Source: Pelagibius sp. Alg239-R121 (lineage in GTDB: Bacteria; Pseudomonadota; Alphaproteobacteria; Kiloniellales; Kiloniellaceae). From it: a stretch of 64,000 nucleotides of DNA. The DNA lies in assembly GCF_947331435.1 (NCBI RefSeq), contig NZ_CAMZOF010000005.1, forward strand, positions 372,001 to 436,000, given 5' to 3'. The position numbers and the translations under genes were made by a program. Position 1 is the stretch's first letter. Every line of letters starts with the position of its first letter. Positions 7,727 to 55,371 of this stretch are shown here, piece after piece. Under the pieces are notes generated by a model. It worked only from the letters and a program-made list of their open reading frames with translations. It ran no database searches and was not told the origin of the DNA.

Positions 7727-7753
7727 GGTTTTGCAATCCGGAACAGCGCGGGA

Positions 7754-8329: not shown

Positions 8330-8423
8330 AACGCGGGCTTCCAATCTGTCGGGCTGGATCACCAGGTAACCGATTGCTGTTGTGAGACCGTCACTCTGCC
8401 GCTAATTGTACTATACATAAAGC

Positions 8424-8441: not shown

Positions 8442-8460
8442 CCATAAGGAAAACTTTGGT

Positions 8461-9375
8461 ATGCGCGGATTGAATCTTGATCATCTCAGCGCCTTCGTCG
8501 AGGTCATCGAACTTGGCAGTTTTTCGGCGGTGGCGGAGCGCTTGAACCTATCGCAGCCGGCAATCAGCCTGCAGATCCGGCAACTCGAAAAGCGTCTGGG
8601 CGTTCGTTTGATAGAGCGGGTCGGGCGCCGGGCCATGCCGACGGCGGCGGGCAGCGAGCTCCTGGCCCATGCCCGAGCGATCGATGCCACGGTGACAACT
8701 GCGCTCAACGATATCGCCCGCTATTCGACCGGTACGATCGGGCGGGTCCGCCTGGGGACCGGTGCCAGCGCCTGCATCTATCTGCTGCCGCCAATTCTGC
8801 GTGGGCTGCGCCAACGCTTTCCATCGCTGGAGATCACGGTCAGTACCGGAAATACGGCGGATATCCTAAAATCCGTGGAGGAGAATAGGATCGACATCGG
8901 CTTCGTGACTCTCCCGGCGACAGGACGGATGCTTGAGGTGACGCCGGTCCTGGAAGACGAGTTCGTTGCCATTGCACCGGCCGAGCAGAAGGGGTTTCCG
9001 CAGAAAGTGACGGCTGCTGCGCTCGCCAAACTCCCGGTCCTACTCTACGAACCAGGCGGGAACACCCGACGCATCGTCGATAAATGGTTCGCACGCAGCG
9101 GCGTTGAACTAAAGCCGGTGATGGCGCTGGGCAGCGTTGAGGCCATCAAGGAACTGGTCGCAGCCGGTCTGGGCTGCGCCGTACTGCCGCGCATGGCGGT
9201 TGAGAGCCGACAAAGCGGCACGGCGCCGCTCGTGGTCCGGTCTCTGTCCCCCAGGCTTCATCGAAAGCTTGCGGTGGCGGTTCGGCTCGACAAACCTCTG
9301 CATCTCGGTCTGCGTGAGATGGTGTCGGCCCTTAAAGCCCTGGCCCCCGACAAGCCGTCTGCAGGAAGTGTGTGA
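8461..9375 (+). CDS. LysR-family transcriptional regulator
   Basis: A 304-residue LysR protein. Its N-terminal winged helix (LSAFVEVIELGSFSAVAERLNLSQPAISLQIRQLEKRLG) is followed by a periplasmic-binding-like effector domain from about residue 90. ATG 8461 follows an AAGGA SD about 10 bases away; a further in-frame ATG upstream would add a non-homologous 12-residue leader. Divergence from the acetyltransferase-MFS pair suggests it controls them. Confidence 0.92.
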   Translation: MRGLNLDHLSAFVEVIELGSFSAVAERLNLSQPAISLQIRQLEKRLGVRLIERVGRRAMPTAAGSELLAHARAIDATVTTALNDIARYSTGTIGRVRLGTGASACIYLLPPILRGLRQRFPSLEITVSTGNTADILKSVEENRIDIGFVTLPATGRMLEVTPVLEDEFVAIAPAEQKGFPQKVTAAALAKLPVLLYEPGGNTRRIVDKWFARSGVELKPVMALGSVEAIKELVAAGLGCAVLPRMAVESRQSGTAPLVVRSLSPRLHRKLAVAVRLDKPLHLGLREMVSALKALAPDKPSAGSV

Positions 9376-9381
9376 CGCGCG

Positions 9382-10095
9382 TTATGAAATCGCGGTCATG
9401 AAGTTGCGGTAGAGTTTTTCGGCGTTGCCGACGAAGCCGGTCATATTGGCATCTGCTTCGTCTTTAAGCTTCTCCAACGCACCAGCCCCTAACGTCGATT
9501 CTAAGGCGCTGCGATACGCCGGGATCGCCCCCCAGTTAGTAACGGTATCAGGCTCGACTTCGACGTGATATTGCATCGACCAGGCGTTCTGCCCGATCCG
9601 CATAGCCTGGACCCGGCAGACGTCGGAGCCAGCCAGAACGACGGCACCCTCCGGCGGCTGGGCCACTTGCACCGAGTGCCACTGCAGGGCCTTTTGACTT
9701 GCCGGCATGCCCGCGAACAGGGGATCGGCAAGACCTTCCGCCGTGAGTACAACCTCCAGCACACCGATTTCCGGGACGGGCTGCGGGCCACAGGTGCCGC
9801 CCAGAGCGTCGGCCAGCAACTGATGCCCAAGGCAGAGCCCGAGGTAGGGTTTCTTCAGATCGCGCACCCAACGTCGGATGGCCTGTTTTTCCGCGACCAG
9901 CCAGGGATTTTGCTCTACGTCCCAGACGTCCATGGGGCCGCCCATGACCCAGAGCACGTCGTAGTCCTCCAGTGGCGGAATGGCTTCCCCTTCGTCCAGT
10001 TCGACCGCCGTCCAGTCGATGCCGTCCTGCTTAAGGTATTCGCGCAGCTGGCCGGGATGCTCGCAGTCGATGTGTTGAAAGACGAGAAGGCGCAT
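9382..10095 (-). CDS. Type 1 glutamine amidotransferase (GMP-synthase-like)
   Basis: A 237-residue class I glutamine amidotransferase with the catalytic triad visible: C88 in GLCLGHQ, H177 and E179 in MQYHVEVEP. Stand-alone members are often annotated GuaA-like or carbobenzoxy-Glu peptidase-like and hydrolyse gamma-glutamyl amides. SD GAGG lies 8 bases before ATG. It converges with the LysR gene, with only 6 bases between stops. Confidence 0.88.
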   Translation of the reverse strand: MRLLVFQHIDCEHPGQLREYLKQDGIDWTAVELDEGEAIPPLEDYDVLWVMGGPMDVWDVEQNPWLVAEKQAIRRWVRDLKKPYLGLCLGHQLLADALGGTCGPQPVPEIGVLEVVLTAEGLADPLFAGMPASQKALQWHSVQVAQPPEGAVVLAGSDVCRVQAMRIGQNAWSMQYHVEVEPDTVTNWGAIPAYRSALESTLGAGALEKLKDEADANMTGFVGNAEKLYRNFMTAIS

Positions 10096-10316
10096 GAAGA
10101 AATCCTCGCAGGGAATGTCAATAATGATATCGAGTCGAAATCGAATGCCATTCTTTCATGCCTGCCCGGCCGGGTCGACATCCACTTGCGGCAAAGCTGC
10201 CATACCAATCTCGCGTACCTCAAGAGGAGACTCCGCCCGTAGGATGATCTGATATGTGTCCTGATGGCTGATTAAGTTTTGGACACGGGCAGGCAATATG
10301 AAAAGGGATGGACGCT

Positions 10317-10925
10317 ATGATTGAGGGCTTTGTGTCATTGGCATTGCTGTGGCTGATTGCCGCGATGACGCCTGGTCCGAATTTCTTTGCGGTGATTCAT
10401 ACTGCCGTCGAAAAAGGCCGTAGTGCTGCCGTGGCCGCCGTCCTGGGGACAGTCGCGGGCACCGTGGCCTGGGCCTTGGCGGGCTTTTTTGGCCTGCAGG
10501 CACTTTTCACCGTCTTTCCCTCTGCTGCGACCGCAATCAAGCTGATTGGTGGTGCCTACCTGATCTGGGTCGGAATCGGACTCTGGCGCAGTGCGCATAA
10601 ACCAGGCGCCGGCGTGCAGCCGGTTGAGGGTGGCGTTGGCCGGGCCTTTCTTTTTGGCCTCTCGACGAATCTTGCGAATCCGAAGACGGCCGCCTTTGCC
10701 GCCTCTATCTTCGCCGTGGCGCTGCCCGCAGACGCTTCAGTCGGCCTGTCGCTCCTTGCCGTGGTTCTGGTTTGCGCCATCTCTCTGGTCTGGTACACGA
10801 TCGTTGCCGTGGTAGGTTCGACCGCGCCTTTTCAACGGACTTATGCCCGGGTGCGCCGTGTTCTCATGCGGGCGACCGGAGTGATTTTTGCGGGTTACGG
10901 CACGCGCCTCATGCTGCAGCAATAA
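10317..10925 (+). CDS. LysE/RhtB family amino-acid exporter (second copy)
   Basis: A 202-residue protein with about six TM helices and the signature AAMTPGPNFFAVIHTAVEKGRS, then FLFGLSTNLANPKTAAF. ATG 10317 is chosen because AAGGGA then lies at good SD distance; the in-frame ATG at 10308 has the purine run directly abutting it. It is divergent from the amidotransferase gene and not close to a partner enzyme. Substrate unknown. Confidence 0.88.
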   Translation: MIEGFVSLALLWLIAAMTPGPNFFAVIHTAVEKGRSAAVAAVLGTVAGTVAWALAGFFGLQALFTVFPSAATAIKLIGGAYLIWVGIGLWRSAHKPGAGVQPVEGGVGRAFLFGLSTNLANPKTAAFAASIFAVALPADASVGLSLLAVVLVCAISLVWYTIVAVVGSTAPFQRTYARVRRVLMRATGVIFAGYGTRLMLQQ

Positions 10926-38240: not shown

Positions 38241-38642
38241 CTACCTGCCTGCGGTCAGAAGCTCTGGATTGACCTGGTCCCATGGCTGGGCGGCCTCCTC
38301 GAAGACCACGAACTTCGGTTCAAAGCGCGACGGGTCGTCCAGCGTTGCAGCGTGAATGTACAGCCGTTCGGGAAAGCGGGCCGTGCTGCTGAAGAGCGGC
38401 GAGCCGCAGGTCGGACAGAAGCTGGAACAGGTGACGGTGCCGTTCTCGATCGTCTGTTCGTATTGCCTGATCTCGCCGGCCAATCTTACCTCGTTGCGCT
38501 GAACGGCGAAGGCTGAGGAATGGCCGCCACCGGTGGCGCGTTGACACTTACGGCAATGGCAATGGAAGGCGAACTCGACTTCGCTGCTGGCACTGTAACG
38601 CACGGCACCACAAGCGCAGCCTCCGGACAGCTTCGGGCTCAT
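38241..38642 (-). CDS. GFA / CENP-V family zinc protein
   Basis: A 133-residue Mss4-like fold protein with two zinc sites: CACGAVRYSA, FHCHCRKCQRATG and SSFCPTCGSPLFS. The family includes glutathione-dependent formaldehyde-activating enzyme, although most members are uncharacterised. Its ATG overlaps the end of the SRPBCC gene upstream (TCAT), so it is translationally coupled to the ArsR-SRPBCC pair. Confidence 0.9.
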   Translation of the reverse strand: MSPKLSGGCACGAVRYSASSEVEFAFHCHCRKCQRATGGGHSSAFAVQRNEVRLAGEIRQYEQTIENGTVTCSSFCPTCGSPLFSSTARFPERLYIHAATLDDPSRFEPKFVVFEEAAQPWDQVNPELLTAGR

Positions 38643-39145
38643 GTCGTCGTCTCCTTACTTAACAGGAAATCTTCGAGACACAGGAGGCCACCGTTCCAGC
38701 CACCGAACAGAGCTTGGCGGGCAAAATCCGAAACGAGCTTTTCGTGTGTAACGGTCACTTCAGTTCCGATCTGGCAGGGCGCGAGTTCGACGGTTACGAG
38801 AGTTGGCTTGCCGTTCGCGTCGCGCCAACCTTCAACCTGTTCTTCTGATGCCCAGCTAAAGATCAATTTGTGTGGCGGTCTGATTTCAATGAAGGTTCCG
38901 AAGTGATGAAAGGCGTCGCCGCCGTCATTCTTCATCAGAAAGCGCCAGAGGCCGCCGACGCGCAGATCATGAGACAATACTTCCGCACGAAAGCCGGGCG
39001 GGCCGAACCACTTTGCCAGGGACGAAGGATTTACCCAGGCGTCGAATACGGCTTCGGGTGTGGCCCTGTAGCTCCGTTGTGCGATTAGCTTTTCCGCCGA
39101 AATCAGACTGGCGTGGTTTTCCACCGAATCGTTTCTAGACATCAT
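38639..39145 (-). CDS. SRPBCC / AHSA1-type protein, ArsR partner
   Basis: A 168-residue AHSA1-like protein: LIAQRSYRATPEAVFDAWVNPSSLAKWFGPPGF, ...FHHFGTFIEIRPPHKLIFSW, then GTEVTVTHEKLVSDFARQALFGGWNGGLLCLEDFL. The gene starts inside the last codons of the ArsR gene, the common ArsR-SRPBCC arrangement. The start could be either of two adjacent ATGs (39145 or 39142). Binds a hydrophobic ligand; substrate unknown. Confidence 0.88.
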   Translation of the reverse strand: MMSRNDSVENHASLISAEKLIAQRSYRATPEAVFDAWVNPSSLAKWFGPPGFRAEVLSHDLRVGGLWRFLMKNDGGDAFHHFGTFIEIRPPHKLIFSWASEEQVEGWRDANGKPTLVTVELAPCQIGTEVTVTHEKLVSDFARQALFGGWNGGLLCLEDFLLSKETTT

Positions 39146-39467
39146 CACCCTCGAGAAATTCTCCTAATGCATCGAGCTTTTGGTCCCAGAAGCGTTGGTA
39201 GCCGGTCAGCCAGCTTGTGGCTTCTCTCAAGGGTGCGGCGTTAAGCTGGCAACGGATGTTTTTGCCTTCCCTGATCCGGCTCATAAGCCCAACGTCGGCC
39301 AGGACGTGGACGTGTCTGGAAACTGCAGCCAGTGACATGTCATGAGGTTCTGCAAGCTCATTGACCGTAGCATCGCCTTGGGAAAGACGTGTTAAAATTG
39401 CGCGCCGGGTCGGATCGGCCAGAGCGCCGAAGACGGCATCCATATCGGATCTGGATTGGCGCACCAT
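39135..39467 (-). CDS. ArsR-family winged-helix regulator
   Basis: A 110-residue regulator: VFGALADPTRRAILTRLSQGDATVNELAEPHDMSLAAVSRHVHVLADVGLMSRIREGKNIRCQLNAAPLREATSWL. No metal-binding CxC in helix 3, so it is not an arsenic sensor; it belongs to the SRPBCC-linked subgroup. ATG 39467 has SD GAGGAG. It overlaps the SRPBCC gene and heads the operon ArsR-SRPBCC-GFA. Confidence 0.92.
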   Translation of the reverse strand: MVRQSRSDMDAVFGALADPTRRAILTRLSQGDATVNELAEPHDMSLAAVSRHVHVLADVGLMSRIREGKNIRCQLNAAPLREATSWLTGYQRFWDQKLDALGEFLEGDDV

Positions 39468-39477
39468 TGTGCTCCTC

Positions 39478-39505
39478 ACATACAATCAACATAATTATTG
39501 AATGT
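39478..39505. promoter_or_regulatory. Inverted repeat before ArsR gene, likely autoregulatory operator
   Basis: ACATACAAT (39478-39486) and ATTGAATGT (39497-39505) match as inverted repeats at 8 of 9 positions with a 10-bp spacer, directly upstream of the ArsR SD. This placement suits repression by the ArsR dimer. Confidence 0.5.
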
Positions 39506-39602: not shown

Positions 39603-41690
39603 CTAGATTTGCAGCAGGATGGGTAAGTCGTCGCGAACCCGCATAAGAGTTTCTCCGGCTTCAGACGGGTAACTTACGGGATGTATGATTCCGGTTCCCA
39701 GGTCGACCGAATGCACTCTGCTGGAAGAGGGGAGTGGGATCCTGATCTCCGAGCGGGAAGCTTCTGCGACCGCAAGTAAGAACGTAAATCGCATTCCCTT
39801 GATCGACATAACCCGTCCGCCGTCGACAATACTGCAGGAACCGGCGGTGAAAGGACCCGGATCCTGGCTCAGAGCCGCGTTCAGGTGCCGCACGATGTGA
39901 AAAGCCTTCCGCGGGTTGTTCAGACGGTCGAGCACACCGTTGCGGACGAAGTATCCTCTGTCATTGTCGATGAAGGTATCGGCGTAGACGGAGACGTTAT
40001 CCTGTGCGACGGATGCGAAGAGGGCTTCGGCGATGCGATTGCCTGCCCAGACATCGTCTTGAGTGGCTTCGGCGGGATCCGCTCCACACATTCGAAGGTG
40101 TACCGAGGCCTTGACACCCAATCCGGCCGCAAGTGCACCTGCTTCCTGAATCGCTTCCCAGGGTCTGCGGTTTGCAGTGAGCCGGAAGACGAAGCCGTCC
40201 AACGCGCCCGTCATGTCTTCGCGGTCCAGAATGGCTTCCATTTGTTCGTAATCTTCAGCGAGGAAACCCTGGTTGATCACGTGGTAATAGCGTCCCGCTT
40301 CTTCGCGAAGCTCGTCGATCGATCGCAGTCTTGACAGGTAAACCGGTAGATCGGCTTGGCGCGCTATCTGGCCGATGTCACTGGCAATGCGTTCAAAGAC
40401 CTCCCAATTCACGCCGATTTCCCAGGCCGAAAAAATGTCCTGGTTGTCGAGGATCAACTTCGTCGTGTGCGTGTTCGGTACACCGAAGGAAAACAGAGTG
40501 AATTCGTGACCCTGGCCCCGCAGCATGCGCATGCGTTCGCAGGCGTCGGTGACCATAAGATCGCGCAGGGGGACGCGGAGTTTGCGAACGCCCATCTCCC
40601 AGAGTGCCATGAGCGGATAGTCGTTGCGCACTTCCTTGCGGTCGAATTCGTCCAGTCCGCCAGTCGGAGGAATCTCAACGATCTCCATCCAGTTCTGGCG
40701 CATGTCGAAGCCGAAGCCTGCGTGAGGATTTAGGCGCGGATGAACCGGCATTACCCCTTGAACCGCCGCGCGCTCGGGCGTGCCGGGATCGAGGGTTTTT
40801 CCGTAGGTCCGGATGACGTCGCAGAGATGGCCGCCTTCGTAAACCCGGACGACGAAATAGCCCAGTTTGGCTTTGTCATTGCGCCCGGCCTGGTCGTCAG
40901 GGCCCGGCTTGATCCGGAACATCTCGCTGTAGTCCTGTCGCACAAAGGCGGTGGAGGGCAGCAGGTAGCAATCGGTGTTGGCGTAACGGTTGTACCAGAA
41001 GTTATGAACATGTCCGATGAAGAGCGCCTCGATGTCGTATTGCTTCAGCAGGTTCAGCATCCAACTGCGGCCGGGCTCGCCGATATTATCGTAGTTTTCC
41101 TCTTCATCGGGCCGCGTGAAATAGGGCGGATAGTGACTATTGAGAAAGATACGCTTGCCGCTATTGGCCTTCAGGTCATTTTCCAGCCACAGCCGTTGTT
41201 CCTCTTCGCAGGCGAGGCCTGAATTGATGATCTGTGCGTTGATGATGACGAAGTGGCAGTCACCATGATCGAAGGCATGGTAATGCGCGCCAAAGTGCTT
41301 TTCCCAGAGGGCGACATAGGCATCGCAGATCTGGGCGGCGGGCGCCCAGTCGTTGGGTTTGTCGCCGATGTCGTGGTTGCCGGGAACCAGATGGAGTTGG
41401 TGCTGAAGGTCGGCGACCTGTTCGTGGAAGCGTGCCGCTGCCTGTTCGTAGAGTTCGGGAATCGCAGGCACCGGATGGATCAGATCACCGACGTTGATGA
41501 CGAAGGCCAGGTCGCGTTGGTTGAGGTCACGCACGACATGACGCATGCGCCGGTTTGCCAAGCGGTTAACCTCAAAGGGCGAGTTGCACTCGTCCTCTCC
41601 CTGATTAAGGTGGGTGTCGGTTATCACGGCGAAGGAGAAGAGCAGGCTACCCAGACCCTGGTCAGAACCGGTGTTTTGCTGGCCGTTCAT
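39603..41690 (-). CDS. Metallophosphoesterase fused to a barrel-like domain
   Basis: A 695-residue protein. Residues about 15-270 are a calcineurin-type phosphoesterase with every metal motif: VITDTHLN, NVGDLIH, VPGNHDIGD, NSHYPP and IGHVHNF. From about 315 to 600 comes a second domain, predicted alternating alpha/beta with TIM-barrel-like features (LMALWEMGVRKLRVPLRDLM, FTLFSFGVPNTH, YADTFIDNDRGYFVRNGVLDRL), then a C-terminal beta segment. No signal peptide, so cytosolic. Its ATG overlaps the tctA stop (ATGA), so it belongs to the Tct operon. I do not know a characterised protein with this pairing. Confidence 0.82.
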   Translation of the reverse strand: MNGQQNTGSDQGLGSLLFSFAVITDTHLNQGEDECNSPFEVNRLANRRMRHVVRDLNQRDLAFVINVGDLIHPVPAIPELYEQAAARFHEQVADLQHQLHLVPGNHDIGDKPNDWAPAAQICDAYVALWEKHFGAHYHAFDHGDCHFVIINAQIINSGLACEEEQRLWLENDLKANSGKRIFLNSHYPPYFTRPDEEENYDNIGEPGRSWMLNLLKQYDIEALFIGHVHNFWYNRYANTDCYLLPSTAFVRQDYSEMFRIKPGPDDQAGRNDKAKLGYFVVRVYEGGHLCDVIRTYGKTLDPGTPERAAVQGVMPVHPRLNPHAGFGFDMRQNWMEIVEIPPTGGLDEFDRKEVRNDYPLMALWEMGVRKLRVPLRDLMVTDACERMRMLRGQGHEFTLFSFGVPNTHTTKLILDNQDIFSAWEIGVNWEVFERIASDIGQIARQADLPVYLSRLRSIDELREEAGRYYHVINQGFLAEDYEQMEAILDREDMTGALDGFVFRLTANRRPWEAIQEAGALAAGLGVKASVHLRMCGADPAEATQDDVWAGNRIAEALFASVAQDNVSVYADTFIDNDRGYFVRNGVLDRLNNPRKAFHIVRHLNAALSQDPGPFTAGSCSIVDGGRVMSIKGMRFTFLLAVAEASRSEIRIPLPSSSRVHSVDLGTGIIHPVSYPSEAGETLMRVRDDLPILLQI

Positions 41691-43204
41691 GTGCGGGCGG
41701 CTTCCGCGGTTGTGCTTGCCTTTGCTTTCGCCCGGGAGTCCCGAATATGGCTACGCACGACCAAGAAGATCGAGAGGGCCGTGAGGGCCCAGAACACCCA
41801 GCAGATGGCGTTGTGGAAGAAGATACCGTAGCTGCCGTCTGAGAGCAGCAATGACTGGCGGAAATTATCCTCCAGCAACGGACCCAGGATAAAGGCGATC
41901 AGGAAGGGGGCGGCTGGGACCTCCAGGCGCAGCATGGTAAACCCGACGATCCCCATGCAGGACATGACAAGGATGTCGAACAGGCTGTTGTTGACGGCAT
42001 AGGCGCCGAAAATGCAGAGCACCAGCACGATTGGGTAGAGCAGGTTGTTGGGTACGTCTGATATGCGGCTGATGGTGCGGATGGAGCATTTGCCGATGAC
42101 GAAGAGGTAAGCTGAACTGAGCATGATGCCGATAAAGATGGCGTAGATCATCGTCAGGTTTTGTTCGAACATTACGGGGCCGGGTTTCAGGCCGTGAATC
42201 ATGAAGGCGCCGAGGATGACCGCGGTAATGACATCGCCGGGCACACCCAATGCCAGCAACGGGATCATGGTCGCTCCGGCCACCCCGTTGTTGCCGGCTT
42301 CGGCGGCGGCAACCCCTTCGATCTCACCCTTACCGAAGTTCTCTTTGTTCTTCGATGTCCGCCGCGCCTCGCTGTAGGACAGGAAGGCGGAGGGCGCACC
42401 GCCGATGCCGGGGATGGCGCCGAGTACGACGCCGATCAGGCTGCCGCGCAGGATCGATTTGAAGCAGCTGCGGAACTCGGCGAAGGTCGCACCGACTTTG
42501 CCCAGAGCGCCGACCGAAACGTGGCCGTCGTTTTTCTTGGCATAGTGGTTGATGATCTCCGGCAATGCAAAGAGGCCGATTAGAACCGGAATGAAATTGA
42601 GCCCGGACATCAGCTCGTACTCGCCGAAGATAAAGCGCTCGGTTCCGTAAATGATGTCCAGTCCGATCGTTGCCAGAAGCAGACCAAGGCAAGCGGAGAC
42701 GATCCCCTTCGAAAGCCGGTCCCCGGAGACGCCGGATATAATGGTCAGGGAGAAAACGATCAGGGTGAAGAATTCGGGCGGGCCGAAGCGCAGCGCAAAG
42801 CTCGCGAGAAACCCGGTCAGTAGTATGAGCGACAGATTCGATACGAAGTCGGCGAAACAGGAAGCGTAAAGGGCCATGTCAAGTGCCCGCCGCGCCTCGC
42901 CGCGTTGGGCCATCGGAAAGCCGTCGAGCACGGTGCAGGATGCAGCCGGCGTTCCCGGCGCTTTCAACAGGATTGCGGTGATGGACCCGCCGTAGAGTCC
43001 GCCTTTGTATACGCCGAGCAGAAGTAGGATGCCGGTCACCGGGTGCATGGTGAAGGTAAAGGGCAGTGCCAGGGCCACCCCCATTGGTGTGGTCATGCCG
43101 GGAATGGCGCCTATTATGGTGCCGATCAGCACACCGATGAAAATGACAAGGATGTTTTCGAAGCTGAGGAACAGGAAAAAGGCTTCGGTCAGATTTTCGA
43201 TCAT
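41687..43204 (-). CDS. tctA: Tripartite tricarboxylate transporter large permease TctA
   Basis: A 505-residue 12-TM permease with the TctA signature GTIIGAIPGMTTPMGVALALPFTFTM and the internal repeat GVVLGAIPGIGGAPSAFLSYSEARRTSKN, and AGNNGVAGATMIPLLALGVPGD. With TctB and the TctC binding protein it imports carboxylates or related small acids driven by ion gradients. Overlaps the phosphoesterase gene downstream and lies 17 bases from tctB. Confidence 0.95.
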   Translation of the reverse strand: MIENLTEAFFLFLSFENILVIFIGVLIGTIIGAIPGMTTPMGVALALPFTFTMHPVTGILLLLGVYKGGLYGGSITAILLKAPGTPAASCTVLDGFPMAQRGEARRALDMALYASCFADFVSNLSLILLTGFLASFALRFGPPEFFTLIVFSLTIISGVSGDRLSKGIVSACLGLLLATIGLDIIYGTERFIFGEYELMSGLNFIPVLIGLFALPEIINHYAKKNDGHVSVGALGKVGATFAEFRSCFKSILRGSLIGVVLGAIPGIGGAPSAFLSYSEARRTSKNKENFGKGEIEGVAAAEAGNNGVAGATMIPLLALGVPGDVITAVILGAFMIHGLKPGPVMFEQNLTMIYAIFIGIMLSSAYLFVIGKCSIRTISRISDVPNNLLYPIVLVLCIFGAYAVNNSLFDILVMSCMGIVGFTMLRLEVPAAPFLIAFILGPLLEDNFRQSLLLSDGSYGIFFHNAICWVFWALTALSIFLVVRSHIRDSRAKAKASTTAEAART

Positions 43205-43220
43205 GGCGGTTCTCCCGGCC

Positions 43221-43760
43221 TCAACGGAGTTGTTCGAACAGGCCGAGCGGCATCGGCACGTTGGCGACGTAAACGAAGAAGACGTAAAGCAATGTTGGCA
43301 GCAGGATTGCGATCGGCAGGATGTAGCGCCAGCGGCGTTCGCCGGTGAAGCGCATCATGAACAGAAGCAGAAGCATGGTTCCAAGGACAATGCCAGTGTA
43401 GGGAAGGGCAAAGTAGAGAGCAAAAATAGCCCCTAATGCCGCGACGACCCGAACTGCGGCCTCTGCCGGAGGGCGGTCTTGTTCGACAACTTCGGTTTCA
43501 GGCGTTGTGTCCTTCGACGCAATGACCGGCGAGGTGGCTGTCTGCCGTCTGCGATCCGACAGGCCTTCCAGAACGACAACGGCGCCGGCGAGCCCTGCAA
43601 AGACCAGAACGATGAAGGGCCAGAAGTCGGGTGCCAGGGGCCTGACTTCGATGTTTTCCGGAGCGTCGACGCCGAGGGGGATTGCGACGAACAGCCCCAG
43701 CATTGCCAGCGCGACGATGGCGGCTCCCAGTCCGATTTCACGGTTTGCATTGCTGATCAT
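43221..43760 (-). CDS. tctB: Tripartite tricarboxylate transporter small subunit TctB
   Basis: A 179-residue protein with four TM helices (LGAAIVALAMLGLFVAIPLG, DFWPFIVLVFAGLAGAVVVLEGL, AALGAIFALYFALPYTGIVLGTMLLLLFMM, ILPIAILLPTLLYVFFVYVANVPMP), the TctB layout. Its start overlaps the ROK gene's stop (ATGA), so regulator, tctB, tctA and phosphoesterase form one coupled operon. Confidence 0.9.
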   Translation of the reverse strand: MISNANREIGLGAAIVALAMLGLFVAIPLGVDAPENIEVRPLAPDFWPFIVLVFAGLAGAVVVLEGLSDRRRQTATSPVIASKDTTPETEVVEQDRPPAEAAVRVVAALGAIFALYFALPYTGIVLGTMLLLLFMMRFTGERRWRYILPIAILLPTLLYVFFVYVANVPMPLGLFEQLR

Positions 43761-44989
43761 GCCACTTGGGTCCTGTCCAATTGCGAAAGGTCAATATCGC
43801 GGCAGAGAAGAAACTCGTTGATGGCGAGCCAACGGGCCGCAGCCTGACTGGTCATGGCGCTGATGCGCAGCCGGTCCAATTCCGAGTCGCGTGGCCAAAT
43901 GCCGTCAATCGCGGCACGCAGGCCTTCGACGTATTGTGGGCTGTTGACCAGCGGGCCCGAGACAATGACCATCTCGGGATGAAGAATTTCCGTTACTGTC
44001 TCGACCAGGTCGGCGAGCGATTGTCCAGCCTTGGTCAGCGCTGTTCGGGCGGAATCATTCCCACCATTTGCAGCGTCCATGGCCTCGATCAGGCTGGCGG
44101 CGGAGGGCAGCGGTGCGTCTGGCGAGGGGCGGCGTCCGACGTCCATATGACGCAGCACACCCCAGCCGCCGGCGACTTCGTTCACGGTCAGCCGCTGGCC
44201 TTTGGCGTCGCGCCACAGTCCCACGTCGTAGACAAGTCCAGCCGAAAAATCCTTGCCGCGCAGCAGGCGGTTGTCGAGCAACAGGCTGCCGCCGATCCCG
44301 AGCGAGGCATTAAAGAGAACGACACTGTGATGTCCGCGACCGATGCCGAAACGGGTCTCCGCCAGGTTCACTGCGTTGGGGATGCTCTCGACATGGATCG
44401 GCATTTCGAGGGCCTGCGACAGGAAACTTCCGATTTCGACGTTTTTCCAACCCATCGACGAAGCGTGGAGGACGGTTCCAGCGTCCGGATTGACGGCGCC
44501 GGCTACGGCGATACTGCCGCCGAAGATCCTGCCTTTTGGAACCTCTGCCTCTCTGATGATATCCAGAGCAGCCTCTGCGACGCGCGCAAGAACGTCATTC
44601 GGGTCAGCGAAATCCGCTAGGCTCAGTTCGCGCCGGGCAACCGCACGGTTCTTAACGTCGGCGAGCGTGATCGTTTGCTGAAAAGCATTGATGCTGATGC
44701 CCAGGACATATCCGCCCTTGGGGTTTACATCCAAGGTTACGAAGCGGCGCCCCGGCCGGTTGGGGGCGGGGAGGGATTCACCTTCGGTTACCAGACCCGC
44801 CTCGATGAATTCCCGTGAAATGCGCGAGACCGAAGCGTTGGTCAGGCCTGTGCGCTGCGAGATCTCGGTGCGCGCCAGCGGTCCGTTCAGAATGATCTCG
44901 GATAACACCAGTCGGCGGTTGATCAGCTTAACGTCCTGGCGGGAGAAGTCCAAAGCGACGATCGACACGGCAGTGTTCCCTGTGTTCAT
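43757..44989 (-). CDS. ROK-family transcriptional regulator
   Basis: A 410-residue regulator with N-terminal winged helix (LVLSEIILNGPLARTEISQRTGLTNASVSRISREFIEAGLV) and a ROK sugar-kinase fold (GYVLGISINAFQQ, FGGSIAVAGAVNP). The zinc motif (CxCGxxGCxE) and the catalytic EGH are absent (ending SAGLVYDVGLWRDAKG), so it is a pure sensor. It controls the Tct/sulfatase genes by position: it heads the minus-strand operon and faces tctC. An inverted repeat overlaps its start codon. Confidence 0.9.
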   Translation of the reverse strand: MNTGNTAVSIVALDFSRQDVKLINRRLVLSEIILNGPLARTEISQRTGLTNASVSRISREFIEAGLVTEGESLPAPNRPGRRFVTLDVNPKGGYVLGISINAFQQTITLADVKNRAVARRELSLADFADPNDVLARVAEAALDIIREAEVPKGRIFGGSIAVAGAVNPDAGTVLHASSMGWKNVEIGSFLSQALEMPIHVESIPNAVNLAETRFGIGRGHHSVVLFNASLGIGGSLLLDNRLLRGKDFSAGLVYDVGLWRDAKGQRLTVNEVAGGWGVLRHMDVGRRPSPDAPLPSAASLIEAMDAANGGNDSARTALTKAGQSLADLVETVTEILHPEMVIVSGPLVNSPQYVEGLRAAIDGIWPRDSELDRLRISAMTSQAAARWLAINEFLLCRDIDLSQLDRTQVA

Positions 44990-45028
44990 TATTTAATTGC
45001 ATACTGTAAGCAAATATGATTGAATAAT
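44988..45028. promoter_or_regulatory. Inverted repeat overlapping the ROK gene start
   Basis: Arms at 44988-45002 (ATTATTTAATTGCAT) and 45014-45028 (ATATGATTGAATAAT) are imperfect inverted repeats, 11 of 15 positions matching, with an 11-bp spacer. They sit on the ROK start codon in the 236-bp divergent region, as expected for autoregulation that also covers the tctC promoter. Confidence 0.5.
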
Positions 45029-45225
45029 TCTCATAAGTCAACGAAAAAAGCGCAAGAAGCGCAGAAACCTTGAGGTTTTCGGCTAATGTGCCGGGTAAGC
45101 AAGGCTGTTGCGACCCCAGGGCTCCGTGCCGAAAAGGTGTCGATTAACGATCGAGACCGCTCGGACGGGTCGCTGATAACGATCAGGGGCACTGCAATGG
45201 GGAAACGTTCTTTTGGGAGGTATGA

Positions 45226-46206
45226 ATGAACCGTCTTTTGAAAACATTTGCCGGGGCTGCGTTTGCCGCTTCGACTGTCCTAACCACCGCCGCACAAGCG
45301 GAATATCCCACCAAACCCGTCACGCTTGTGTCGCCCTACGGGCCAGGCGGCGCAGCGGATCTCGCGGCGCGGACACTCTCGGCCACTGCGCCAGGACTGC
45401 TGGGTAACGGCATCCTCGTCGTGAACCGCACGGGAGCCGCCGGTGTCACCGGTTCGACCTTTGTCGCGAAATCACGTCCTGATGGCTACACGCTGTTACT
45501 TGCCCGCGTCGGTTCACAAGCGGCGGTGCCGGCGATCAATCGCAAGATCCCCTACAAATGGGACGACTTCACCTTTCTGGGCATGCTGGAACAGAACCCT
45601 TTCGTGCTGACCATCAACGCGGATTCTCCCTACCAGACCTTCGATGAACTTAAGGCTGCGATCAAAGGCGGCGAAAAGTTAAGCTATGCTTCTGCTGGTG
45701 TCGGCACGCTGTTGCATCTTGCCATGGTGGTTCTGCAGGACGATCTGGGTGTTGAGGCTTCGTCGCTGAAGCATATTCCCTTCAAGGGCGGCGGGAAGGC
45801 GGCAGCTGCCGTTGTGGGTGGCCATGTCGACCTGCTCTTCCAGAATCTGTCCGGTGTTATCGGTAATATCCAATCCGGCAAGCTTCGGGCCCTGGCAGTG
45901 ACCACCGACAAACGCGTGGCCTCGATTAAGGATGTGCCCACCGTTAGCGAGTTGGGACATCCGGGTCTGGGGGTCATTGTTGGCTGGAGCGGCCTATGGG
46001 GACCGAAGGATCTGTCTGATGACGTCGTCACCAAGTGGACGGGCGTGCTGCAGGGGCTCGGAGAAGACAAAGCCTGGAACAAGATGACTGCGGGCCTCGG
46101 TTCCGTGCCGACGATCATGAACCCGACCGATACCCACGAATTCGTAAAGGCGCAGTATGAGACTTTCCGCGAGGTCACCGAACGTCTTGGTTTGACAATT
46201 AAGTGA
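45226..46206 (+). CDS. tctC: Tct transporter periplasmic solute-binding protein TctC
   Basis: A 326-residue Bug/TctC binding protein with a signal peptide (KTFAGAAFAASTVLTTAAQA) and the family motifs YPTKPVTLVSPYGPGGAADLAAR, GSTFVAKSRPDGYTLL and HIPFKGGGKAAAAVVGGHVDL. It delivers the ligand to TctAB encoded on the other side of the ROK gene. SD GGGAGG is strong. A good intrinsic terminator follows. Confidence 0.95.
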   Translation: MNRLLKTFAGAAFAASTVLTTAAQAEYPTKPVTLVSPYGPGGAADLAARTLSATAPGLLGNGILVVNRTGAAGVTGSTFVAKSRPDGYTLLLARVGSQAAVPAINRKIPYKWDDFTFLGMLEQNPFVLTINADSPYQTFDELKAAIKGGEKLSYASAGVGTLLHLAMVVLQDDLGVEASSLKHIPFKGGGKAAAAVVGGHVDLLFQNLSGVIGNIQSGKLRALAVTTDKRVASIKDVPTVSELGHPGLGVIVGWSGLWGPKDLSDDVVTKWTGVLQGLGEDKAWNKMTAGLGSVPTIMNPTDTHEFVKAQYETFREVTERLGLTIK

Positions 46207-46228
46207 CTTGCGGCCTGTGCCTCCCGGA

Positions 46229-46256
46229 GGGGCCGGCTTTATGCCGGCCCCTTTTT
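46229..46256 (+). terminator. Rho-independent terminator after tctC
   Basis: GGGGCCGGC (46229-46237), loop TTTAT, GCCGGCCCC (46243-46251) and TTTTT: a perfect 9-bp stem with T-run. It separates tctC from the sulfatase gene, allowing high tctC expression. Confidence 0.92.
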
Positions 46257-46323
46257 CTCCATAGTGCGGCCACGAACATGAACCGCTGGTAATTTGTTGA
46301 AGGCGAATGACAAGAGGACGCCG

Positions 46324-47868
46324 ATGAAAACCCCGAACATCCTGGTCATCCAAGTCGATCAAATGACCCCCATGGCGATGTCGGCCTATGGACATCCACT
46401 GGTCAAGACGCCTCATCTGGACGCGCTCGCAGAGACCGGCGTCGTGTTCGAAAACGCCTATTGCAATTTTCCGCTCTGCGTGCCGTCACGTGTCTCGATG
46501 ATGGCAGGCCGACTGGCAAATGCCATCGGTGCCTGGGATAATGCTATCGAGATGCCGGCTTCGGTGCCGACCCTGGCGCACTATCTGCGTAATGCCGGAT
46601 ATCACACCGTGCTTTGCGGCAAGATGCACTTTATCGGGCCCGACCAGGTGCATGGTTTCGACGAACGCATCACCACCGATGTCTACCCTTCCAACTTCGC
46701 CTGGACACCTGACTGGATCGTGGGCGAACGCTATCGCCCGACCGGAATCTCTCCACGCGCCGTGGTCGAGGCAGGGGTCTGTACTCGCAGTCTCCAGATC
46801 GACTACGACGATGAAGTCGAGCATGCCGGCATACAAAAACTCTACGATCTGGCCCGCTTCAATAGCGATAAACCTTTCCTGCACTGGGTGTCCTTCACCC
46901 ACCCGCATTCGCCCTTTATCACGCCTCAGAAATACTGGGATCTCTACGATCACGACGCCATCGACATGCCGAAGGTTCCACCCATTCCCGTCGAGGAATT
47001 GGACACCTTCTCGCGCTGGCTTCACTACGCCCATGCGCAGGATCGACTGACCATCGAGGAAGAACACGTGCGCAATGCGCGCCATGCCTACTACGGCATG
47101 TGCAGCTACCTCGACGATAAAGTCGGACGTATCATGGGGGTTCTGCGCGAAACCGGCCTGGATGAGAATACGATGGTCGTGTTTACATCAGACCACGGGG
47201 AGATGCTTGGCGAGCGCGGCATGTGGTTCAAGCAGAGTTTTTTTGAATCCTCGACACGTGTCCCCTTGATAATTTCCGCACCGAAATCCCTTCCGAACGC
47301 ACTTGGGTCCGGCCGCGTCTCCGAGTTGGTGTCGCTGGTCGATCTCTTGCCGACCTTTATGGATGTGGCGACCGAAGGAAACGCGCCGGAGCCGGTCTCG
47401 CCTCTGGACGGCCATTCTCTGATGCGCCTGATGACGGGTGACGACCCACGGTGGGACAACGTGGTTATTTCGGAATACACCGGTGAAGGTGTGATCGCGC
47501 CCTGCCGGATGCTGCGCCGTGATAACTACAAGTATGTCTATACCCACGGACATCCCGGCATGCTGTTCGATCTGGACCGGGATCCCCTGGAACTCACCAA
47601 TCTGGCCGGCAACCCCGATACTTTGGAACTCGAGCAGCAGCTTCTCGCTGATCTGCTTGAGGGCTGGAACCCCGATGAGATCTACGCGCTTTGCATTCAG
47701 AGCCAGAAAGAGCGCATGTTCATTCAGGCTGCGACCGGCGGCGAGCCCAACTGGGCGCACCAAAGCCGGATCGGAGACGAGCACCGCTATGTGCGAAACT
47801 CCGGCGCGGTGGAAACCAAGGGCCTGTCACGCTTCCCCTTTGTCGAGCCGACCCCTTTCGAGCGCTGA
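46324..47868 (+). CDS. Choline-sulfatase-family arylsulfatase-type enzyme
   Basis: A 514-residue type I sulfatase. The formylglycine Cys is C52 in NFPLCVPSRVSMMAGR. Blocks typical of choline sulfatase BetC are present: YLRNAGYHTVLCGKMHFIGPDQVHGFDERITTDVYP, the region QIDYDDEVEHAGIQKLYDLAR, WVSFTHPHSPFI and GERGMWFKQSFFESSTRVPL, and the C-terminal HRYVRNSG...SRFPF. No signal peptide, so cytosolic. Position between tctC and gnd argues that its substrate enters by the Tct system; choline sulfate is the first guess but Tct ligands are usually acids. Confidence 0.9.
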   Translation: MKTPNILVIQVDQMTPMAMSAYGHPLVKTPHLDALAETGVVFENAYCNFPLCVPSRVSMMAGRLANAIGAWDNAIEMPASVPTLAHYLRNAGYHTVLCGKMHFIGPDQVHGFDERITTDVYPSNFAWTPDWIVGERYRPTGISPRAVVEAGVCTRSLQIDYDDEVEHAGIQKLYDLARFNSDKPFLHWVSFTHPHSPFITPQKYWDLYDHDAIDMPKVPPIPVEELDTFSRWLHYAHAQDRLTIEEEHVRNARHAYYGMCSYLDDKVGRIMGVLRETGLDENTMVVFTSDHGEMLGERGMWFKQSFFESSTRVPLIISAPKSLPNALGSGRVSELVSLVDLLPTFMDVATEGNAPEPVSPLDGHSLMRLMTGDDPRWDNVVISEYTGEGVIAPCRMLRRDNYKYVYTHGHPGMLFDLDRDPLELTNLAGNPDTLELEQQLLADLLEGWNPDEIYALCIQSQKERMFIQAATGGEPNWAHQSRIGDEHRYVRNSGAVETKGLSRFPFVEPTPFER

Positions 47869-47992
47869 TCCTTTTTGGGGCCCGACCCAATCGAGCCTTC
47901 CGGCGTCTGTTTCGATGGACGTGATGTACTTGCCTGATTAGGTTGTCGGGGGGCAACCGGCCTTCCGTCAGTTGGGAATTTCAAGGGGTAAA

Positions 47993-49417
47993 ATGGCTAG
48001 TAGCGACAAGGAAAGCGCCGTAATAGGCTTGCTCGGATTGGGGACAATGGGGGCCAATCTTGCCCTTAATATCGCGGAAAAGGGCTTCAAGATTGCTGTT
48101 TTCAACCGCACAGTGGAGACAACGCGCAGGTTTCATGCGCAATCGGGCGGGTTGGCGCAGCAAATCGTGCCTTGTGACGTCCTGGAAGACCTCGTTTCAG
48201 CCCTAAAACCCCCCCGCTCCATCATTTTGATGCTGCCGGCAGGGGAGATTTTGGACCAGCAGATTGCGGTTCTGCGGGAGCTGCTGGATCCCGACGACTT
48301 GATCATCGACGCGGGCAATGCGAATTTCCACGACACCAACCGGCGGACCGCCGAGGCCAAGGCGACGGGCGTACCCTACCTGGGGATCGGCGTCTCCGGT
48401 GGTGAGGAAGGTGCACGCCACGGCCCCTCCATCATGGGCGGTGGCCCCCGTCCAGCCTGGGACCGCGTGTCGCACATTTTGGGGGCGATCGCCGCGAAAC
48501 ATGACGGCCAGGCCTGTGCCCAATGGATGGGTGAAGGTGGTGCCGGTCACTTCGTGAAGTCGGTCCACAACGGCATCGAATATGCCGACATGCAGATGAT
48601 CGCCGAGGTCTACGGCATCCTACGCGACGGCTTCGGCATGACGGCGGCGGCAATCGGAGAGGTCTTCGCCCGCTGGAACAAAGGTCCGCTGAAATCCTAC
48701 CTGATCGAAATCTCTGCCGAGGTCTCAAGCTGCCGGGACGCGCAAAGCGAAAAACCTATGCTGGACGTGATACTGGACCGTGCCGGCCAGAAGGGCACCG
48801 GACGCTGGACGGCGATCGAGGCGCTGCATCTGGCTTCGCCCGCGACGGTGATCGAAGCGGCGGTCGCCGCGCGCAATCTCTCTTCAAGGCTAGGGGAGCG
48901 GAAGGCCGGCGAAGCCATCTTCGGTGCCGCCCCGCGCGCCCTCGCGCCGGACGCGCTCACCATCGATGCTTTGGAGAACGCGCTGATCGCCGGGAAGATC
49001 GTTTGCTACGCCCAGGGCTTCGGGCTGTTGGCTTCGGCCTCGGATGCCTACGGCTGGTCGCTTCCTCTGCCGGAAGTCGCGCGGGTCTGGCGGGCCGGCT
49101 GTATTATCCGCTCAAGCATGCTCAACGACATGGCCGAGGCCCTGACGAAAAACCCGACCCTCAATCTAATGTTCTCGGATTTCTTTGCCGCGCGTCTAAA
49201 GGGAAGCGAGCTGGCGTTGCGTGAGGTCGTTGCGGCCTCGGCGCTTGCGGGATTACCGGCCCCTGCCTTGTCATCGGGGCTCGCCTACTTCGATATGATG
49301 CGCACGAGCCGCTCGACCGCCAACATGATCCAGGCGCAGCGGGACTTTTTCGGTGCGCATAGCTTCGAACGTATCGGTGAAGAAGGGGCGCACCACGGTC
49401 CCTGGCATAAGGGGTAG
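47993..49417 (+). CDS. gnd: 6-phosphogluconate dehydrogenase, decarboxylating
   Basis: A 474-residue enzyme that oxidises 6-phosphogluconate to ribulose-5-phosphate and CO2. GLLGLGTMGANLALNIAEKGF is the NADP-binding loop; VSGGEEGARHGPSIMGGG and FVKSVHNGIEYADMQMIAEVYG form the substrate site (catalytic Lys and Glu visible). The C-terminal AQRDFFGAHSFERIG...HHGPWH ends as in the E. coli-type long form. ATG 47993 has SD AAGGGG. It lies after the sulfatase, linking this cluster to the pentose phosphate pathway or a related phospho-sugar acid. Confidence 0.93.
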   Translation: MASSDKESAVIGLLGLGTMGANLALNIAEKGFKIAVFNRTVETTRRFHAQSGGLAQQIVPCDVLEDLVSALKPPRSIILMLPAGEILDQQIAVLRELLDPDDLIIDAGNANFHDTNRRTAEAKATGVPYLGIGVSGGEEGARHGPSIMGGGPRPAWDRVSHILGAIAAKHDGQACAQWMGEGGAGHFVKSVHNGIEYADMQMIAEVYGILRDGFGMTAAAIGEVFARWNKGPLKSYLIEISAEVSSCRDAQSEKPMLDVILDRAGQKGTGRWTAIEALHLASPATVIEAAVAARNLSSRLGERKAGEAIFGAAPRALAPDALTIDALENALIAGKIVCYAQGFGLLASASDAYGWSLPLPEVARVWRAGCIIRSSMLNDMAEALTKNPTLNLMFSDFFAARLKGSELALREVVAASALAGLPAPALSSGLAYFDMMRTSRSTANMIQAQRDFFGAHSFERIGEEGAHHGPWHKG

Positions 49418-52537: not shown

Positions 52538-54181
52538 TCAGTTGGCGCGGTGGTATGGCACCACCTCAGGCGGGAGTGGGGCGCGGTCCAGAATTTTGTC
52601 GGCCGCTTTCTCTGCGATCATGAAGACGCAGGCGTTGATGTTGGCACTTGGCACGGCGGGAATAACCGAGGCATCGACAATGCGCAGCGCGTCTATTCCA
52701 CGGAACTTCAGATTCAGGTCGACGACGGCACGCGCATCACCGTCTGCACCCATCCGCGCGGTCCCGCAGGGGTGATAGGCCGACGACGCGTCTTCGCGAA
52801 TGAAGTCACACCATTCGGCATCGGTGCGCACATGAACGCCCGGCAAGTCTTCGCGGTGGTGAAACTCCTTGAACGCGGGCTGCGACAACAGCTCACGACC
52901 CAGTTTCAATCCTTCACGCATGACGAACCAATCGCTGTCCGTTGCCAGATAGTTCGGGTCAATCAATGGCGCATCGTTTGGATCGGCCGAGGCCAACCTG
53001 ACCGTGCCGCGACTTTCGGGGCGCATGGGTCCCGCCCCGAGGCGATAGCCGTTCTTGTCGGGATCGGGTATCCAGTTCGGCCCAAAGAGGATAGGGAAGA
53101 AATGGAACTGGATATCTGGATGGGTCGTTTCAGGCGTTGAGCGCAGGAACGCACCTACGTGGCACTGATTCACCGCTGCTACGCCGCCCTTCCAGCCAAA
53201 CCACTGCATTCCGGCCCAGACCATCAAATGCGGCTTGAGGTATTTGTTGAGCGAAACTGACTTGACAGTTTCGACCTGAATATGCGCTTCCAGGTGATCT
53301 TGCAGGTTCTCGCCCACATTGGGAGCATTGAACACGACCGGCACGTCATGTGCTTTCAGATGCCCCTCGGGACCAACACCAGACAACATTAACAATTGCG
53401 GGGTACCAAATGCCCCGGCAGACAGGATGACTTCGCGGCTGGCGCGGACATGGTGCCTGTTGCTGCCTTTGGCGAATTCGACACCTACGGCACGGCCTTT
53501 TTCGACAAGCACGCGCAAAACCTTAACGCCGGTCTTGATCTCCAGATTCCTTCGTTTTGGCTGGGAATGCAGATAGGCTCGCGCTGAGGTGCTGCGAATG
53601 CCGCCTTCGACCGACATCTCAAACCGGCTGACGCCCTCCTGAGAATATCCGTTTACGTCCTCCGTCAGAGCGTGACCCGCCTGCTGGCCTGCCTCCAGAA
53701 AGGCATTGTTGAGCGTGGATAGTTCTTGTTGAGTTTTAACACCCACCATACCCGTGGTGTTGCGATATTCGTTCCTGGGACCATCGCGGCGCTCAAACCT
53801 CTTGAAGTAAGGCAGACAGTCGGCAAAAGACCATCCTGCGCAGCCCTCGACCTCGACCCAATCATCATAATCGCGCGGGTTTCCACGTAGAAAGGTCATC
53901 CCGTTAATCGAAGACGACCCGCCCAGTGCCTTTCCTCGCGGCTGATCGATCTCGCGGTTGTTGAGGAATTTCTGGGGCGTCGTCTTGAACCAGTAATTGT
54001 ACTTGCTGGTCGGTTTGAATGCCGAGCGCAAACCGGCTGGCATCTGAATGATCCAGTTGCGGTCATCTCCGCCGTGTTCAAGCAACAACACCGAGAAACT
54101 GCCATCCTCGCTCAACCGGTGGGCCAGAACACAGCCCGCCGTGCCGGCGCCGACGATGACATAGTCATATTCAGTTCTCAC
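52538..54181 (-). CDS. GMC-family FAD oxidoreductase (choline-dehydrogenase-like)
   Basis: A 547-residue flavoprotein. The FAD loop is [22 protein letters not shown]; then [22 protein letters not shown] and, at the C-terminus, [20 protein letters not shown] and [20 protein letters not shown] (catalytic His...Asn pair). GTG 54181 overlaps the M24 gene stop (GTGA), so it is translationally coupled to it. DddA, which oxidises 3-hydroxypropionate in DMSP breakdown, belongs to this family, but so do many alcohol dehydrogenases. Confidence 0.9.
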
Positions 54182-55371
54182 AGGTAGTCTTCCTCGAACG
54201 GACAATCAGTCAGAGAAACGGGGCCGTCGTTCGTAATCAGAACTGGCTGTTCAAGCTTTACGCCTTCGTCACCACCCACTGGGCCAATATAACTTTCGAC
54301 ACAAACGGTCATACCTTCCATGAAAGTGCCGGAGTACTGCCAGGTCTCGTGGTCTTCAGGATAGTAGATGACCGGGTACTCCACTCCGAATCCAATGCCG
54401 TGAATCATCTCGGCATAGCGGTTGGGCACATAGATATCGTGCATCTTCCATGACAACTCGCCAAATTCCTCGAATGTCATGCCGGGACGCAGCAGCGCCA
54501 TGTTGTGCTGCATCTGCTCAAATGCATGAGCATAGAGTAGACGCTGTTCATCGGTCGGATTTCGGTCGCCAACGACAAAGGCACGCGTTTGGTCTGCGAA
54601 TACCCCGCCGGGGCCGATCAGGTCGCTGTCAAAAACCAACATTTCTCCGTTTGCGATCAGCTTGTCCGTGGTCTCGGTGAACCATGGGTTTGTGTGATGC
54701 CCCGAAGTCAGAAGGCGAGTTTCCTGGTATTCGCCTCCATGGCCCATATTGTATTCGTTCATCTTCGCCAGCAGGAAATTCTCGGTCACGCCCGGTTCGG
54801 CAAACTGACGCATATGAGCAATTGCATCTGTGCAGACCTGCATCGAATTCCTGATGATCGCTACTTCGTCCATTGACTTGATAGAGCGGGCCAATTCCAT
54901 TGGACCCTTAGCGTCCTTCATTTTGATGCCGCGATGTTGCATGGCCAGCGTCGGCAAGAGGTCAGCGCGGTCAATGCCCAGGGTCGCGCCACGGCCGCAG
55001 GTTCGATGCAGCAGGTCGACGATCTCGTCCGCCCATTTGTTCGCATGCTCCTCGGCACGGTTGCCTGACCCGAAATAATCCCAACTCCTTGCCGGGCGCG
55101 TTTCGTCAATGGTTTCGAGGTCGTCCGAAAGATGCTTGGCCCCGCCATAGTCGAACAGGACAATCGGCCCTTCGACCGTCACAAAGACGTAGCGGGACAA
55201 ATGATGCGAGGTCCAGACCTGCATATTCCGACATCCTGTCGCATAACGCAGGTTCAGCGGGTCAAACAGCACTGCGGCGTCCATCTTGAACTGCGCCAGC
55301 AGTTCGCGCGTACGGTTCAGCCGATACGCACGTACGCGTTTCTCGTCGATGATATGCGGGAGATCCAGCAT
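54178..55371 (-). CDS. DddP-like M24-family protein
   Basis: A 397-residue protein of the M24 'pita-bread' fold, closest by memory to the DMSP lyase DddP. Shared blocks: [20 protein letters not shown] and [19 protein letters not shown]. The six DddP metal ligands (Asp295, Asp297, Asp307, His371, Glu406, Glu421 in RlDddP) match D248, D250, D260, H324, E359 and E374 with constant offset 47; Tyr366 matches Y319. The proposed catalytic Asp377, however, is V330. So it is a DddP relative whose reaction may differ. It begins the cluster with GMC and cupins. Confidence 0.8.

Follow-up and report, generated by a model that had tools for sequence, protein, structure and literature searches.

A conserved cassette in Pelagibius sp. 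Alg239-R121 joining a tripartite tricarboxylate transporter, a relative of choline sulfatase and a two-domain phosphoesterase

Positions 39603 to 49417 of a 64,000-nucleotide stretch of DNA from the 8.02 Mb genome of Pelagibius sp. Alg239-R121 (the whole stretch, G000:C5:372001-436000, is called the window below) carry genes for a ROK-family transcriptional regulator, the three components of a tripartite tricarboxylate transporter (TTT; TctA, TctB and TctC), a sulfatase and a two-domain phosphoesterase (hereafter the fusion), followed by gnd. The first six of these genes are one conserved unit, and their clustering goes beyond chance because the identical six-gene set recurs in other genomes. 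It is probable, in our judgement, that they form one scavenging cassette by which an organic anion is imported and its sulfate and phospho- or phosphonoester groups are removed.

The minus strand carries the fusion gene (39603..41690; PF00149 plus a predicted fold), tctA for the large membrane subunit (41687..43204; PF01970, E 6.5e-146), tctB for the small membrane subunit (43221..43760; PF07331) and the regulator gene (43757..44989; PF00480 and a winged helix-turn-helix, PF13412). Diverging from these on the plus strand are tctC, which encodes the periplasmic solute-binding protein (45226..46206; PF03401, E 7.2e-52; signal-like N-terminus by eye), and the gene for a BetC-clade sulfatase of the formylglycine type whose substrate hairpin is altered (46294..47868; PF00884, TIGR03417). 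Next on that strand comes gnd (47972..49417), a decarboxylating 6-phosphogluconate dehydrogenase gene (TIGR00873, 555 bits; PF00393) that starts 103 nt past the sulfatase stop, is not coupled to it and is judged to lie outside the cassette. All seven open reading frames (ORFs) lie where the initial annotation had put them, and Pfam and NCBIfam matches agree with the families it had named; its description of the minus-strand genes as coupled throughout by ATGA overlaps is correct for ROK/tctB and tctA/fusion, which overlap by 4 nt, but not for tctB and tctA, which are separated by a 16-nt gap. Since the genome contains 14 TctA matches, finding one Tct set near other genes is weak evidence, and it is conservation that counts.

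Fusion homologs were found in 8 of the 385 genomes of a class sample, one of four members of the genus, one of 27 genomes of the order of G434 and two of 398 genomes of a phylum sample. A relatives search of 143 genomes gave eight matching, three of them near full length, two of the 31 records of a plasmid search covered at least 80% of the query, and a contig scan yielded 13 loci (L018-L030). Genes were called by codon score in 13 loci, and family scans covered selected neighbors only. After removal of duplicates (L050 = L026, L051 = L028, L052 about L029), 22 fusion loci were compared, namely the window, L010, L031, L018-L030, L053-L055, L073, L076 and L077. TctABC and an orthologous sulfatase accompany the fusion in nine of them (window, L018, L025, L027, L028, L029, L030, L053 and L055), and a relative of the window's ROK protein occurs in eight of the 22. 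The initial annotation had regarded fusion, transporter and sulfatase as a shared unit and had proposed a survey of how often homologous fusions keep such company; with both partners at nine of 22 loci, co-occurrence is not rare and the shared unit is upheld. The content is held through three gene orders: sulfatase-tctC divergent from ROK-tctB-tctA-fusion (window, L018, L025); tctC-sulfatase-fusion divergent from ROK-tctB-tctA (L027-L030, L053); and tctB-tctA-fusion divergent from tctC (L055, where the sulfatase gene lies beyond the fusion and a ROK gene was not found). Among the other loci, two have the sulfatase without Tct (L019, L021), one has a non-orthologous TctBAC set 6-10 kb off together with phosphonate genes (L054/L074), and three have TctC alone, directly downstream of the fusion (L073, L076, L077).

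The converse test was made in the one 385-genome class sample, in which the fusion, TctA and the sulfatase were searched, with scoring limited to three candidates per genome. Eight genomes have a TctA match at E <= 1e-180. Those of at least 71% identity come from five (G000, G243, G336, G405, G413) and stand beside the fusion in all five, the 64% matches come from genomes without the fusion (G003, G139, G253), and a second G000 copy (63%) is not beside it. Sulfatase matches at E <= 1e-150 were found in nine genomes, and in five of these they adjoin the fusion. It is in our opinion improbable that the phosphoesterase gene is a stray one, unrelated to a Tct-sulfatase operon and beside it by chance: seven loci lack both Tct and sulfatase, and members of the sulfatase clade exist without the fusion, as such an explanation would have it, but the 4-nt overlap of tctA and fusion, the five-in-five adjacency of close TctA genes and the constancy of content through rearrangement all speak for a real association.

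Several observations nevertheless weigh against a single cassette. In the seven loci with neither Tct nor sulfatase (L010, L020, L022, L023, L024, L026, L031), the contigs of the first three measure at most 11 kb and that of L023 ends just past the fusion; L024, L026 and L031, however, are flanked on either side by at least several kb of sequence. Independent lineages among the 22 loci are few, since many of the loci (L019/L021; L027-L030 and L053) are closely related, and the converse test likewise amounts to three lineages because three of its five genomes share one genus, with the 71% line for TctA having been set after the list was seen. Furthermore, the TctC proteins next to the fusion in the three beta-type loci are non-orthologous (31-33% identity), one of these loci (L076) alone having four genes annotated as TTT binding proteins within 26 kb, and the fusion-linked sulfatases form one side of a branch at weak support (54/83).

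The component shared by all 22 loci is the fusion, whose N-terminal half (about residues 14-298) is a GpdQ-type class III metallophosphoesterase (PF00149). The predicted metal ligands D25, H27, D69, N105, H106, H186, H227 and H229 are invariant in all 22 sequences, and they lie in the motifs DxH, GD, GNHD, H and GHxH, which we take to mark this type of enzyme. The modeled N-terminal domain also has the GpdQ-type fold, and on sequence and model together the fusion is a GpdQ-type metallophosphoesterase with predicted diesterase activity. In the same AlphaFold2 model (mean pLDDT 75.3, pTM 0.81, with several stretches below pLDDT 50) the C-terminal half (about 321-695) is a (beta/alpha)8 barrel plus beta-sandwich of GH-A-like fold, and the model is matched by GpdQ and by a GH39 enzyme, which supports the C-terminal barrel recognized in the initial annotation. 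Among GH-A folds the barrel is best matched by BcGH39 (PDB 5JVK), followed by a GH79-type beta-glucuronidase, GH51 and PslG, in fold-match listings that leave other families possible. Residues 573-593 of the barrel, D575, D577 and R578 among them, belong to a part of the model predicted with low confidence.

The sequence of the barrel, by contrast with its fold, has no recognizable glycosidase relatives. The window barrel has no Pfam match, and none of the barrels of 17 fusion members has a meaningful one, the hits falling on seven unrelated families, one member each, with no glycosidase among them and a best E of 0.032; a profile search of the PDB with the barrel returned nothing up to E 10. 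In GH-A glycosidases, strand 7 ends with the nucleophile, a Glu, and strand 4 with an Asn-Glu acid/base pair. No Asp or Glu occurs at 528-536, the end of strand 7 as located by DSSP of the model and not by superposition, in any of the 22 fusion sequences; nearby, L055 alone has a Glu at 527, at the strand start, and some fusions have D or E at 537-539. On strand 4, E424 is invariant, but it is preceded by W, L or F and never by Asn, and the strand end varies. An active glycosidase barrel was therefore rejected, as catalytic glutamates are not at the GH-A positions. Compared with GpdQ, the glycerophosphodiesterase of Enterobacter aerogenes (PDB 2DXL, 2ZO9, 3D03), the fusion adds a barrel of ~375 residues and sits in an import cassette; compared with BcGH39, it has the barrel and beta-sandwich fold in common but only 11% identity. 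Because 26 barrel positions are invariant across the 17 sequences, the role of this domain is open to direct test.

The window sulfatase scores 563.7 bits against the choline-sulfatase model TIGR03417 (curated cut-off 433.45) and is 41% identical to Sinorhizobium meliloti BetC over 489 aligned residues. It keeps H104, D296 and H297, which we take to be catalytic in choline sulfatase, as well as C54, N75, K102, H201 and K309. The roles of the latter five are described in the accessible parts of PMC5870055 and PMC9063841. Tyr123, Trp129 and Glu386 are also kept, and according to PMC5870055 every choline sulfatase has Glu386, the acid at this position contacting the cation. The choline-binding hairpin, described as GW-X13-WYHN with Trp129 and His145 in the part of PMC9063841 available to us, is on the other hand lost: TGIS replaces WYHN (W143->T, Y144->G, H145->I, N146->S), and in place of the Asn146-Asp500 latch the window protein has Ser and Glu. 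All 11 fusion-linked sulfatases have lost WYHN; their hairpin reads P-T-[GN]-[IL]-[SNT] and position 386 is acidic (E in five, D in six). None of the 20 other rows of the alignment combines the two: L078 has the hairpin pattern but carries M at 386, and WYHN is present in four rows, the reference among them. The fusion-linked proteins fall into two groups, each with 100/100 support.

Choline sulfate is unlikely to be the substrate of this enzyme because the choline-binding hairpin is lost though the catalytic residues are kept, in agreement with the initial annotation, which had considered it a poor fit. A wider explanation, in which the locus serves choline-O-sulfate utilization with a true BetC and the remaining genes are incidental, would be favored by the TIGR03417 score, the retained catalytic residues and E386, and by a GMC oxidoreductase gene (52538-54205) 3 kb past gnd that exceeds the PRK02106 cut-off. 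We regard it as very improbable, given the uniform loss of WYHN in fusion-linked copies, the failure of the GMC gene to reach the betA cut-off TIGR01810, and the presence in the same genome of two copies with WYHN and E386, L057 and L059, which at 48% and 64% identity to the S. meliloti enzyme compare with 41% for the window protein. Since L059 has WYHN and the 64% identity, the genome appears to possess a canonical choline sulfatase elsewhere. Relative to S. meliloti BetC (PDB 6FNY, 6G5Z/6G60, 7PTH/7PTJ), the window protein has the formylglycine-type cysteine motif, the catalytic residues, the acid at 386 and a similar C-terminal tail with Asn495 in common, and it differs in the replaced choline clamp and latch and in the company of TctABC and the fusion. 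No signal peptide is evident on it by eye.

Other sulfatase loci were noted in this genome. A parallel cluster (L056; G000:C13:5000-24999, about 3291-10878) contains a ROK-like gene, a DctM-type TRAP permease, an NMT1-like binding protein and a pair of sulfatases; one of the pair is 53% identical to the window's but has ASGTA in the hairpin and Ile at position 386. At G000:C7:192860-194302 there is another match resembling choline sulfatase (42%; L038, L060), which has one in-frame TAG. The GMC gene downstream of gnd is choline-dehydrogenase-like and adjoins an M24/creatinase-type peptidase gene (52538-55371), and L019, L021 and L078 likewise have a GMC gene close to the sulfatase.

TctA, TctB and TctC are all present, which makes the importer a complete TTT. 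The carboxylate motif of the window TctC is PYGPGGAAD, where the family motif is P-[FY]-x-x-G-G-x-x-D according to the accessible part of PMC5812351. TTT systems for sulfolactate (SlcHFG, PMC5812351) and alginate oligosaccharides (PMC13390454) are likewise importers of acidic small molecules, but the accessible portions of these papers show no sulfatase and phosphoesterase partner there. The regulator has a helix-turn-helix and a ROK domain, and its Mlc/NagC equivalog scores (95.5/84.0 bits) are far under the cut-off. The spacer between its gene and tctC holds an inverted-repeat-like sequence of 21 nt, TTAATTGCATACTGTAAGCAA (44993..45013, plus strand), that we consider a candidate ROK operator, as similar sites exist in L018 and L025. 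The window and L018 copies are each identical at 17 of 21 positions to the L025 copy in the corresponding spacer, and shuffling the mononucleotides of the window spacer 300 times gave no equally good match to the L025 copy; a weaker related form occurs in L027-L030 and L053 (14-15/21, with 1-5 of 300 shuffles as good). These shuffle counts are not blind because the motif was picked from the same spacers. The rest of the 64-kb window contains no site of at least 16/21, save an overlapping match on the reverse strand.

The initial annotation had gone on to propose a model in which the cell takes up a sulfated or phosphorylated sugar acid, removes the ester group and sends the product via gnd into the pentose phosphate pathway. 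The TctC motif, the report of a TTT that imports alginate oligosaccharides (PMC13390454, accessible part), the glycosidase-like fold predicted for the barrel and the second sulfatase gene beside the fusion in L028 and L053 are in its favor. The link to gnd, however, did not hold up. Among the 22 loci, the window is the only one that has this gene next to the fusion, a count to be read with some contigs being short (L018 stops 534 bp past its sulfatase). It is the sole PF00393 match found in the genome, and it is present in all four genus members searched, three of which carry it at 83-84% identity without having the fusion. In the 20-kb stretches around gnd in these three genus-mates, no other window ORF is shared at E <= 1e-10, and the neighbors are, by eye, propionate-type genes. 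With a single copy in the genome, and with genus-mates carrying it without the fusion in another neighborhood, gnd looks like a housekeeping gene beside which the cassette happens to lie here; it was rejected as a pathway member, and we consider the sugar-acid route unlikely. At the other end, an AHSA1-domain gene (38639-39148) and two small ORFs lie just left of the cassette on the same strand (38241-39485). By 2-kb steps the cassette has a GC content of 0.58-0.59. Immediately to its left the value is 0.56, with 0.59 farther out at 32-36 kb, and on the right it is 0.53-0.56 from 50 kb onward. There is no clear signature of foreign origin.

Elsewhere the fusion adjoins aminophosphonate, dioxygenase or TctC genes, and its chemistry is for this reason wider than sulfated sugar acids. 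One such locus, a large one (L054/L074, G434:C14), runs from a PhnD-like solute-binding protein, PhnE, an iron-type alcohol dehydrogenase, a GcvT-domain FAD enzyme, the fusion and PbfA through an FAD oxidoreductase, a LysR-like gene (by eye), PhnW, TctB, TctA and TctC to a weak CehA-like match, a sulfatase, an aminotransferase and a second sulfatase; PhnE and PhnW are over their cut-offs, the PhnD-like gene is below that of PhnD, and the TctB match is 40% over 60 residues. PhnW and then tctB-tctA-tctC lie on one strand there. L019 has the order PhnW, short-chain dehydrogenase/reductase, sulfatase, fusion, with PhnW over cut-off and a single gene from the sulfatase, and L021 carries the same genes at 97%. 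In L024, TauD/BBOX dioxygenases flank the fusion on both sides, the best names being TmpA and butyrobetaine dioxygenase at scores far below cut-off; L026 has one beside the fusion (79% identity), and PhyH genes are near the fusion in these loci. In L022 and L024 there are relatives of sulfopyruvate/phosphonopyruvate decarboxylase subunits that score below cut-off, a sarcosine oxidase beta gene over cut-off lies 3.9 kb from the fusion in L055 with a 74% relative about 8 kb from it in L053, and a SulP-type transporter follows TctC in L073 and L077. Further neighbors include several related dioxygenase genes at L024 10695-17705 (the one scanned is of the PhyH family) with one relative at L026 13568-14611, a hydantoinase in L019 and a methylmalonyl-CoA mutase in L026.

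From these neighbors it can be proposed, as a possible though doubtful alternative, that the compounds handled by the cassette carry amino-alcohol or aminophosphonate head groups, which the fusion would free from a glycerol or sugar ester (e.g., glyceryl-aminoethylphosphonate or a glycerophospho-amino alcohol), while the sulfatase would take the sulfate analogue. The E or D that the sulfatases keep at the cation-contact position of choline sulfatase (PMC5870055, accessible part) fits this proposal, but Glu386 is present in sulfatases unlinked to the fusion as well. PhnW over cut-off was detected in four of the 10 fusion genomes searched (G000, G035, G434, G760); it is near the fusion only in G434, being on a different contig in the other three, and was not found in G067, G243, G318, G336, G405 and G413. 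It is also present in the three genus-mates that lack the fusion. Aminoethylphosphonate as a general substrate was not supported, since four genomes with the full cassette (G243, G336, G405, G413) have no PhnW over cut-off. Compared with known aminoethylphosphonate clusters (PhnW, PbfA; PMC8154272, PMC10590968), the G434 locus lies inside such a cluster and L019/L021 have PhnW near, whereas no PhnW gene accompanies the window cassette in the region examined. The main texts of PMC12366243, PMC10590968 and PMC8154272, which deal with these clusters, do not contain the words phosphodiesterase, sulfatase or phosphoesterase, and the accessible part of PMC10574752 mentions phosphodiesterase only for PhnP.

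Returning to the scavenging cassette, we infer its catalytic steps, their order and cellular places, and the action of both hydrolases on one compound, as follows. Outside the cell, TctC would bind a small organic ester bearing a carboxylate, which TctAB would bring in. In the cytosol, the sulfatase would strip a sulfate ester and the GpdQ-type dimetal site of the fusion would cleave a phospho- or phosphonoester, with the barrel holding the organic part of the substrate. The ROK protein may repress both divergent operons from the intervening site until an inducer binds. Entry of the product into the pentose phosphate pathway would not be required.

Our literature searches, outside the scope of which lay preprints and most subscription journals, found no import-and-de-esterify route of this kind, no paper joining tripartite tricarboxylate, sulfatase and metallophosphoesterase, and none joining metallophosphoesterase with glycoside hydrolase family 39. 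It can be speculated, with considerable reserve, that the cassette represents a new catabolic pathway for compounds with an amine-bearing head group esterified by sulfate or phospho/phosphonate. Its parts might then be a TTT importer, a re-specialized relative of choline sulfatase and a new enzyme class, a GpdQ-type diesterase steered by a pseudo-glycosidase barrel, and different lineages might conceivably use this one diesterase in the metabolism of sulfate esters, aminophosphonates or methylamines. If the scavenging cassette works in the way inferred above, it would define an import-and-de-esterify route in Rhodospirillaceae metagenome bins and their relatives, built in part on a barrel that has no Pfam family, and it would offer a substrate handle both on TctC proteins of unknown ligand and on proteins annotated as 'choline-sulfatase', probably in error.

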